Shown here: piece after piece, positions 6,035 through 23,790 of the stretch
Numbering within the stretch: the first letter of the stretch is position 1
How the letters are laid out: every line of letters starts with the position of its first letter
Assembly: GCF_030295425.1 (NCBI RefSeq)
Contig: NZ_AP027081.1
Location: forward strand, 310,001-374,000
DNA from: Mesoterricola sediminis
GTDB taxonomy: Bacteria > Acidobacteriota > Holophagae > Holophagales > Holophagaceae
Direction of reading: 5' to 3'
Length of the DNA stretch: 64,000 bases
Position numbers and translations under genes: made by a program
The notes under the pieces: model-generated
The model's database searches: none
What the model was told of the DNA's origin: nothing
The model's input: only the letters and a program-made list of their open reading frames with translations

Positions 6035-6206
6035 GGGGCGCTCCGGACGTGGCGTTTGGGCCCGCTCCCGGTTCCCGGCGGGATCCAGGGGCGAGCGTCG
6101 TTGGGCGGGCGTGGAAACTCCGAGCCTGGGCGGCGGGAAGGCCACCTGCAACGCTCCTCGGAGAACGTTGATCCTACTCTCCGAATCCCTTGTGGCGCAA
6201 GGCCTT

Positions 6207-16530: not shown

Positions 16531-16541
16531 GTTATTGAAAA

Positions 16542-16563
16542 CCGGGGCGTTGCGGCGCCCCGG
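16542..16563 (+). terminator. GC-rich hairpin after fusA
   Basis: An 8-bp perfect stem (CCGGGGCG/CGCCCCGG, six-base loop) starts 11 bases after the fusA stop. The following tract is only weakly T-rich (CCGCTTTCC), so termination efficiency is uncertain. Confidence 0.5.
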
Positions 16564-16679
16564 CCGCTTTCCACAGCCCCCCGCCAGGGGGGTGAGGCCG
16601 CCTGAGAACCCCGGTTCGAGGCCTCCAGATACCCAGGACCGACGGAGGGGCGACCCTCCCGAAATCCCTTGATAACCAA

Positions 16680-16707
16680 AAAAGCCATTGCGAAATCAAT
16701 GGCTTTT
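16680..16707. terminator. AT-flanked hairpin ahead of the S10 operon
   Basis: An 11-bp perfect inverted repeat (AAAAGCCATTG, six-base loop CGAAAT, CAATGGCTTTT) lies about 100 bases upstream of rpsJ. A-rich on the left and T-rich on the right, it has the form of a bidirectional intrinsic terminator. It is also the most AT-rich spot in the region, so it may instead or also shape promoter access for the S10 operon. Confidence 0.55.
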
Positions 16708-16715
16708 GATATTCT
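16688..16715 (+). promoter_or_regulatory. Weak candidate promoter for the S10 operon
   Basis: TTGCGA and TATTCT, each 4 of 6 to the sigma-70 boxes and 16 bases apart, overlap the right half of the hairpin at 16680-16707. The expected leader would be about 85 bases before rpsJ. The match is modest; position and AT content are the main support. Confidence 0.3.
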
Positions 16716-16807
16716 GATCAGCCCTGTCCCAGTTCCCGGGACAACAAACCCATGGGCGGTCAGCGCCCCACATCTATGGACGGCCCGTCCGTCCCAATGG
16801 AGTGAAG

Positions 16808-22152: not shown

Positions 22153-22427
22153 TGGACAAGCCGACCAAGATGAAGCTCAAGAAGGGTGACGACGTCATCG
22201 TCATCGCCGGCAAGGAAAAGGGCAAGCGCGGCCAGGTCGCCAAGGTCCAGCCCTCCGCCAACAAGGTGGTGGTCACCGGCCTGAACCTGATCAAGAAGGC
22301 CACCAAGCCCAACCAGCAGACCGGTGAAGGCGGCGGCATCGTGACGAAGGAGGCTCCCATCCACGCCTCCAACGTCATGCTGGTCGACCCCAAGACCCAG
22401 AAGCCCACCCGCAAGCGGGCCGAGTAA
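22152..22427 (+). CDS. rplX: 50S ribosomal protein L24
   Basis: A 91-residue L24 with the KOW motif [18 protein letters not shown], followed by [20 protein letters not shown]. It is an assembly initiator for 50S. It is shorter than E. coli L24 (about 104). The next gene starts only after an unusual 207-base gap. Confidence 0.96.
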
Positions 22428-22471
22428 GCTATTTCCTGTTCCGTTCTCGAACGTTTGTGAGAGAATGACCC

Positions 22472-22499
22472 TTCCGCCGATGGATCCCCATCGGCGGAA
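22472..22499. promoter_or_regulatory. Perfect 12-bp hairpin in the rplX-rplE gap
   Basis: TTCCGCCGATGG and CCATCGGCGGAA form an uninterrupted 12-bp stem with the four-base loop ATCC. It starts 45 bases after the rplX stop. No T-run follows, so a simple terminator is unlikely on the plus strand. In E. coli the spc operon is controlled by S8 binding mRNA at the rplX-rplE boundary; this structure lies at the same gene boundary, but no S8-site match was verified. Confidence 0.5.
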
Positions 22500-22634
22500 T
22501 TCCGGTGCGGACGTCGTCCCGCCGGATCGTTGACAACCGAGGTTGGAAGGAAAACGGGCCGGACCGCCGGACCCAAGCCCTTCCGCCCTCCCGAACCCTG
22601 GGGGCGTAGTCGCCCCCCGGAAATGGAGGAAAGC

Positions 22635-23189
22635 ATGCCTAACGCTGCGGATCCCCGCACCAAGGCCCGCTACCAGTCCGAAGTGGCTGGCAAGCTCAAG
22701 GAGGAGTTCGGCTACACCTCTGCCATGCAGGTGCCCCGACTCCAGAAGATCGTCATCAACATGGGCGTCGGCGACGCCATCCAGAACATCAAGGTCCTGG
22801 ACACCGCCGTCGACGAACTGACCGCCATCGCCGGTCAGAAGGCCGTGGTCCGCAAGGCCAAGAAGAGCGTCGCCCAGTTCAAGCTGCGCGCCGGGATGCC
22901 CATCGCCTGCATGGTCACCCTCCGCGGCAACCGGATGTGGGAGTTCTTCGACCGGCTGACGTCCCTTTCCCTCCCCCGCGTCCGCGATTTCCGCGGCGTG
23001 CCCACCAAGAGCTTCGACGGCCGGGGCAACTACACCCTGGGCCTCAAGGACCAGCTGATCTTCCAGGAGATCGACTACAGCAAGGTCGAGAAGCTGAAGG
23101 GCATGAACATCACCTTCGTCACGTCCGCTCCCACGGACGCTGAAGCCCGCGCGCTGCTTGCCCACCTGGGCATGCCTTTCCGGAAATAG
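22635..23189 (+). CDS. rplE: 50S ribosomal protein L5
   Basis: A 184-residue L5 ([56 protein letters not shown]). L5 binds 5S rRNA and contacts the P-site tRNA. The ATG seven bases from GGAGGA is preferred; upstream in-frame starts lie in the non-coding gap and lack homology. Confidence 0.97.
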
Positions 23190-23394: not shown

Positions 23395-23790
23395 ATGAAC
23401 ACCGATCCGATCGCAGATTACCTCACCCGCATCCGCAACGGGATCATGGCCGGCCACGACGCCGTCGTCATCCCCGCCAGCAAGATGAAGGACCGCCTTT
23501 CCGCCATCCTGAAGCAGGAAGGCTACATTCACGGCTACAAGGCCGTGGAGCACGAGGGCCGGAACTACCTCATCGTCAACCTGAAGTACGTGAAGAACGG
23601 CGAGTCCGTCATCCACGGCCTCAAGCGCGTCTCCACCCCCGGCCTGCGCGTCTACGCCGGCGCCAAGGAGATCCCCGAGGTCCAGGGCGGCCTCGGCATC
23701 GCCATCCTCACCACCCCGAAGGGCCTGCTGACCGGCAAGGATGCCCGGAAGCAGAACCTGGGCGGTGAAGTCCTGGCCCACGTCTGGTAG
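23395..23790 (+). CDS. rpsH: 30S ribosomal protein S8
   Basis: A 131-residue S8 (DPIADYLTRIRNGIMAGH; VISTPGLR-like segment KRVSTPGLRVYAG; LGIAILTTPKGLLT). S8 organises the 16S central domain and in E. coli represses its own operon. The 11-base spacer upstream carries GAGG. Confidence 0.97.
   Translation: MNTDPIADYLTRIRNGIMAGHDAVVIPASKMKDRLSAILKQEGYIHGYKAVEHEGRNYLIVNLKYVKNGESVIHGLKRVSTPGLRVYAGAKEIPEVQGGLGIAILTTPKGLLTGKDARKQNLGGEVLAHVW

Follow-up and report, generated by a model that had tools for sequence, protein, structure and literature searches.

An rplE leader RNA of Holophagaceae as a candidate S8-responsive element of the spc operon

The rplE gene of Mesoterricola sediminis is preceded by a structured RNA that is a real, lineage-specific ribosomal leader of the family Holophagaceae. 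Its conserved core (positions 22530-22634 of the window, the 64,000-nucleotide [nt] stretch of DNA analyzed here) ends immediately before rplE and folds into two hairpins, P1 and P2, the second of which pairs the Shine-Dalgarno (SD) sequence of rplE. Judged from sequence, we propose with a probability of roughly 0.6 that the leader acts in cis, senses free S8, and controls translation of the spc operon genes that follow it in this family. It would then probably represent a newly recognized case of S8 autocontrol of this operon.

The window contains an S10-spc-alpha ribosomal protein cluster. The genes for L14, L24, L5, type Z S14, and S8 were identified by NCBIfam, and the other names in the cluster (rplW, rplB, rpsG, fusA, rpsJ, etc.) were assigned presumptively from the translations. 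With rplX ending at 22427 and the ATG of rplE at 22635, the gap spans 22428-22634, exactly the 207 nt given in a preliminary description of the region. The spacing of 0-35 bases between neighboring ribosomal genes, also given there, is nearly right within the S10-spc cluster; it is exceeded by rplW-rplB (approximately 65 nt) and, according to the ORF coordinates, by rpsG-fusA (approximately 117 nt) and fusA-rpsJ (approximately 270 nt). The last of these spacings, at 16531-16801 between what we take to be fusA and rpsJ, is a possible S10-operon leader or promoter region. In four relatives of the same genus, the rplX-rplE gap measures 174, 179, 179, and 193 nt, versus 207 nt in the window. The features discussed below are listed in Table 1. 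Because the frame of rplE is open from a TTG at 22530, an N-terminal extension of rplE was considered. It was rejected, since length differences between leaders are not multiples of three and what is conserved is a pattern of RNA pairing.

Table 1. Window coordinates of features in and around the rplX-rplE gap
Feature	Position	Strand	Remark
Extended -10-like element TGAGAGAAT	22458-22466	+	Hexamer at 22461-22466; conserved in the family
12-bp hairpin of the preliminary description	22472-22499	+	Starts 5 nt after the -10-like element
Extra stretch TTCCGG..CCGGA	22500-22527	+	Missing or altered in relatives
GAG, possible competitor strand for CUC (alternative helix P0)	22539-22541	+	Upstream of P1
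Hairpin P1	22544-22585	+	UGGAAGG/CCUUCCG helix, internal loop AAAAC/AAGC, GG/CC, apical hairpin
P1 strand AAAAC, resembling A640-N641-A642-C643 of the S8 core	22551-22555	+	Two-strand scan, one or two bases at N641
P1 strand AAGC, resembling A595-A596-G597-Y598 of the S8 core	22575-22578	+	Two-strand scan
Hairpin P2	22588-22628	+	CUCC/GGAG closing helix, internal loop CGAAC/AAAU, CC/GG, covarying apical stem
SD sequence GGAGG of rplE	22625-22629	+	Partner of CUCC in P2
rplE (uL5)	22635-23189	+	NCBIfam NF000585; first gene below the leader
rpsH (uS8)	23395-23790	+	NCBIfam NF001109; proposed ligand gene, two genes after rplE

The distribution of the leader was followed by searching for rplX in 60 genomes, 56 of which gave a match. 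In Holophagaceae (family f1), 33 of 37 genomes were matched (G005, G022, G024, and G031 were without a match), and one locus was extracted from each, a second match in G007 being left out. A long gap and the same block just before rplE were present in all 33 loci. With the starts as assigned here (that of L029 was mis-set), gap lengths in the family range from 162 to 367 nt. In 23 relatives outside the family, the gaps measured -8 to 35 nt except in L055, where 161 nt of different sequence were found. Among 24 further non-family loci, the gap could be obtained for 23; 8 of these gaps were longer than 60 nt by the expected start, partly due to N-terminal extensions, and the block was absent, by eye, from all 23.

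A covariance-model search of 396 genomes of the phylum, run with stricter filters able to lose weak matches, detected the leader in 38 of the 39 family genomes, once in each. Eighteen of the 38 were outside the set used to build the model, and the single family miss (G312) was without an rplE match in its assembly. From the other 357 genomes, only two weak matches were obtained (G145 and G403); neither shares a contig with rplE, and both fall within or span other open frames, so they were attributed to chance. At all 20 loci checked among the 40 matches, rplE was directly downstream. In addition, an exact P2 pattern was searched for in genome_contigs, a collection described as covering 84,980 species. 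It yielded 57 matches, mostly labeled Holophagaceae, Holophagales, Acidobacteria, or Geothrix, and in 51 of them rplE came right after the pattern. As for the other six, L110 and L138 end too soon, the rplE match of L116 starts later, and L113, L122, and L133 were judged to be chance. The leaders of L109 (labeled Bacillota) and L131 (Deltaproteobacteria) are those of family loci L013 and L009, respectively.

One of the 51 matches, L140:1-4497 (JAIUNP010000321), is labeled Proteobacteria. Its rplX end, leader, and rplE start are Holophaga-like; next come an rplE 57% identical to that of the window and, at 42-59% identity, a long S14, S8, and additional genes. These downstream genes look alphaproteobacterial. 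With a coverage of approximately 1x, L140 is probably a chimera; horizontal transfer is conceivable.

The preliminary description had suggested a comparison of the gap among relatives. Such a comparison uncovered a conserved structure in Holophagaceae, and the opposite outcome, no conserved structure, did not occur. The 107-nt core folds better than 200 of 200 dinucleotide shuffles (z = -3.2). For the 33 family sequences, RNAalifold returned two adjacent hairpins with 21 pairs, 9 of them changing on both sides. To count covariation, the 51 distinct sequences among 87 rows were reduced to 50 by leaving out L140 and were aligned without structure. One weak outer pair was dropped and two R-Y internal-loop pairs were added, giving a set of 22 pairs. 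Altogether, 97.9% of the cells were paired, compared with a shuffle mean of 91.6, and none of the shuffles reached this value (0/500). Cells changing on both sides numbered 92 (shuffle mean 33.4; 0/500), pairs changing on both sides 9 of 22 (shuffle mean 6.3; 4/500), and the covariation score was 0.269 (shuffle mean 0.145; 0/500). The count of further pair types was not above shuffles (22 versus a mean of 20.6; 121/500). When partners were slid by 1 to 3 columns, pairing fell to 36-61%.

The covariation resides in the lower helix of P1 and the apical stem of P2, the SD helix itself being invariant. Five of the seven pairs in the P1 lower helix vary on both sides yet stay paired (99.4% of cells), and, in the P2 apical stem, both sides change in four of the five varying pairs, one of which is unpaired in 12 of the 50 sequences. 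CUCC/GGAG and CC/GG of P2 were unchanged in 50/50 distinct sequences. The invariant pairs (CUCC/GGAG, GAG/CUC, and the loop pairs) thus receive no covariation support. Near-invariance of CUCC/GGAG, CC/GG, and the internal loops is silent on pairing and tells much about constraint. In Rfam 15, no match over threshold was found for the gap region; five near-matches (E 2.3-4.6, with E up to 10 allowed) were all far below their gathering scores and were discarded. Elsewhere in the window, at 6086-6165 on the minus strand, an SAH riboswitch scored 57.2 bits, above the Rfam gathering score.

When a longer stretch of the window leader was folded, GGAG was predicted to be paired with a probability of 0.95-0.99 per base. 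GGAG is kept even in L033, where the SD sequence is GGAGC. The GAG upstream of P1 is able to pair with CUC in 49 of the 50 distinct sequences, without covariation, and the exception has no GAG. Folding of 12 leaders indicated that the CUCC-GGAG and GAG-CUC helices compete: the probability of CUCC-GGAG was >=0.7 in two leaders (L001 and L028), 0.13 to 0.37 in six, and <0.05 in four. The predicted fold of the window leader depends on length, the longer stretch giving CUCC-GGAG and the minimum-energy fold of the 107-nt core giving GAGG-CCUC. A conserved GAG that could capture CUC suggests a two-state switch; since GAG and CUC do not covary, this switch is one that we infer.

The preliminary description had listed a ribosomal protein leader among its options, and a covarying, structured leader that pairs the SD sequence agrees well with it. 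As expected of an S8 operator, the leader sits in the spc operon between rplX and rplE, and rpsH follows downstream. In helix 21 of 16S rRNA, the S8 core comprises the G597-C643 pair, position 641, the invariant A642, and, in Escherichia coli, the triple A595-(A596-U644), as described in the sections of PMC4176348 used here. We defined a strict two-strand motif, A-N-A-C / A-A-G-Y bordered on either side by two base pairs. In E. coli rRNAs, it was found at one place in 16S (the S8 site 595/640 in helix 21), at three places in 23S, and nowhere in 5S. The places in 23S (73/144, 654/716, and 1020/1046 in L087) are matches at the sequence level. The E. coli operator (+7/+80) was found by the scan once one flanking pair was relaxed. 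The E. coli sequences fit the numbering, with AAGU at 595 and AUACU at 640 in 16S and with AAACU at +7 and AAGU at +80 in the operator.

Without position 644, the strict motif was present at P1 in 31 of the 33 leaders, compared with any match at all in 2.7% of 300 shuffled leaders. In the two misses, L013 and the copy of the window itself, N641 is expanded by one base. A rule permitting either one or two bases there also detects P1 of the window, with 0.065 matches per 207 nt expected by chance. The A-strand reads AAAC in 82 of the 87 rows (which include repeat genomes), AACAC in 2, AGAC in 2, and AAAAC in 1, the deviations being confined to the N641 position. The opposite strand is CCAAGCC in 86 of the 87 rows and CUCAAGCC in the remaining one, and a counterpart of the C643-G597 pair exists in 49 of the 50 aligned rows. 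The P1 loop, AAAC facing AAGC, is flanked by GG/CC on one side and by the covarying helix on the other, and its strands follow the same order as in the E. coli operator. P1 therefore offers A642, the G597-C643 pair, N641, A595, and A596; P2 does so only in relaxed form.

The P2 loop, CC-GAAC-CC / GG-AAAU-GG, is three transitions away from that of P1 and has the reverse strand order; two of the transitions replace G-C by A-U at the 597-643 pair. A relaxed motif was present at P2 in 33/33 leaders and in 8.7% of the shuffled leaders. In E. coli rRNA, it matches at 6 places in 16S and at 12 in 23S. With this many other matches, P2 is a much weaker candidate for an S8 site than P1. At both loops, a U644 counterpart (the 596-644 pair and the A595-(A596-U644) triple) is absent, and only the 644-less form was found. 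Since this counterpart is missing, our claim is one of S8-operator-like function and not of a copy of the known site. According to the part of PMC4176348 considered here, an aptamer without the usual motif still binds S8, which makes a variant site plausible, yet renders motif matching less decisive. A matching change in the RNA loop of the S8 protein (TTP for STS) was considered and dropped: in the rows in which the motif was located, a part of the total, STP and TTP occur both inside and outside the family.

In E. coli, the spc operon is repressed by S8 at the start of rplE, as stated in the consulted portion of a review (PMC10931766), in agreement with the preliminary description, which had placed an S8 repressor site at this gene boundary. 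The leader was also suspected there to be unlike the known S8 site. This applies to its position, upstream of rplE and not over the start, and to its overall fold; it does not apply to the P1 loop, which carries most of the S8 recognition core. The E. coli operator and the leader share the gene boundary, the target gene rplE, and the strand order (A-strand 5', AAG-strand 3'), and GAAACUG ... CAAGUCCC in E. coli compares with GAAACGG ... CAAGCCC in most P1 copies. A translational block at rplE is described for E. coli in the same portion of PMC10931766 and is what we propose for Holophagaceae. In contrast to E. coli, where the rplX-rplE gap is 14 nt long and the site lies inside the rplE start, the Holophagaceae have a separate leader, with a second similar loop, a pairable SD sequence, a possible competing helix, and no U644 counterpart. 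With 16S helix 21, P1 shares A595-A596-G597-Y598 / A640-N641-A642-C643 including G597-C643. The leader differs from helix 21 in the missing 644 partner, in the A-U at 597-643 of P2, and in the strand order of P1, which is reversed as in the E. coli mRNA operator; the order in P2 is the natural one.

Other bacterial leaders of ribosomal protein genes, such as the 20 reported by Eckert and Weinberg 2020 (PMC7247131), are likewise structured 5' elements of narrow lineage range. None of the 20 leaders in its Table 1 is assigned to L5 or S8, and Acidobacteria are unnamed in the main text. The yeast RPS22B (uS8) intron element provides autoregulation by an S8 homologue via a stem with two bulges; it acts on splicing and, per its authors, is not alignable with bacterial S8 sites (PMC13232506, in part). 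The 2024 review, in the sections considered, calls spc regulation in Bacillus subtilis or other species unknown and describes phylogenetic studies of spc control as stalled (PMC10931766). No such element appears in the passages considered from PMC11109978 and PMC2704228, and the leader is undescribed in Rfam 15 and in the open-licence papers searched.

Under the proposed mechanism, transcripts would begin at an internal promoter or read through from rplX. In an open state, GAG would be paired with CUC and P1 would be extended; in a closed state, CUCC would be paired with GGAG and P2 would be complete. Surplus S8 would bind the helix-21-like loop of P1 and possibly also the similar, reversed loop of P2. 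Its binding would stabilize P2 and hide the SD sequence, so that rplE and, through coupling, rpsN, rpsH, and later genes would be translated less. A more specific version is tentative, and we consider it rather doubtful: the leader might be a two-site S8 sensor that originated independently at the boundary also used in E. coli, with loops in opposite order, in which P1 is always formed and P2 is complete only with the SD sequence hidden. Such a conformational switch between GAG-CUC and CUCC-GGAG would differ from the simple start-codon block of E. coli. In a phylum this distant, a conserved leader at the rplX-rplE boundary would suggest that regulation of spc at rplE, probably through S8, has more than one origin; under the S8 reading, the leader would also be a natural S8-binding RNA without one base triple of the described recognition fold.

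One rival reading has L5 (uL5) as the ligand: the leader would mimic loop C of 5S rRNA, and binding of L5 would close P2 over the SD sequence. rplE is indeed the gene immediately downstream, and the invariant UCCCGAAC of P2 is also present in this genome's own 5S rRNA, where we take it to be loop C, the L5 site. The 3' strand of P2, CGGAAAUG, presumably resembles the common bacterial 5S sequence CGGAAGUG. By eye, CCG/CGG could stand in for helix III in many members, but genus g8 has UUG/CGG there. However, the two loop strands are separated by an inserted hairpin, and the 5S rRNA of this genome reads ACGGCAGUU after the UCCCGAAC match; the second strand fits less well. Moreover, the invariant P1 (AAAC/AAGC) is left unexplained, and L5 is absent among the 20 leaders in Table 1 of PMC7247131. 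We therefore regard sensing of L5 as quite unlikely. It is unlikely, too, that the ligand is neither S8 nor L5, be it S14, L24, L6, L18, a small molecule, or none, with control by temperature or initiation rate. The structure and the SD pairing hold without naming a ligand, and PMC7247131 describes inference of a ligand from the following gene as a poor heuristic. Against this stand the resemblance of P1 to the S8 core and the two conserved internal loops of specific sequence, which we infer to favor a protein over a thermometer.

The remaining alternatives concern transcription. Upstream of the leader, TGNGANNNT occurs in 30 of the 33 family loci and, inside one fixed interval, in 27 of 33, whereas 200 mononucleotide shuffles gave a mean of 1.2 and a maximum of 4. 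This conserved extended -10-like element supports the internal promoter region mentioned in the preliminary description; a plain sigma-70 consensus scan of the region found no promoter, and for this reason the internal promoter is no more than likely. The perfect 12-bp hairpin reported earlier is real, with arms at 22472-22483 and 22488-22499 that are complementary at 12/12 positions and enclose a 4-nt loop. All 33 loci have a predicted hairpin 0-10 nt downstream of the -10-like element, a count that has no shuffle baseline and includes three loci using a looser -10-like element. The sequence of the 12-bp hairpin differs between genera, and it is not the leader core. Its position just downstream of the -10-like element points to a possible 5' end of an rplE transcript, of which it may be the 5'-terminal hairpin. 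A DNA operator at the promoter palindrome is unlikely, since the sequence shifts between genera while the predicted hairpin persists. The conserved -10-like element followed by a predicted hairpin would suit a region that is merely an internal promoter, a stable 5' hairpin, and an untranslated stretch, with no feedback. This is improbable: approximately 100 nt of covarying structure, the invariant loops, and the invariant SD pairing would be unexplained, and even genus g8, whose assemblies measure 0.9-1.2 Mb, retains the leader. An attenuator, which had also been suggested, or a terminator could draw on the strong hairpins in the gap. An intrinsic terminator (a GC hairpin plus a U run) was looked for in 22300-22700, and no terminator-like site was found there, so that such a function is barely credible. 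In the rplX-rplE gaps of L008 and L010, long imperfect repeat-like stretches (of the CAGTGGTCAGCGATCAGT type, by eye) are located upstream of the promoter-like element; they are perhaps small mobile repeats.

A different element precedes rplE in another Acidobacteriota family, f10 (L152-L155; less clear in L162 and L163). By-eye comparison gave no fit to the S8 core. In L153-L155, a CCACG is pairable with a CGUGG that adjoins GGAG upstream of the start, and this element may be a second, independent rplE leader.
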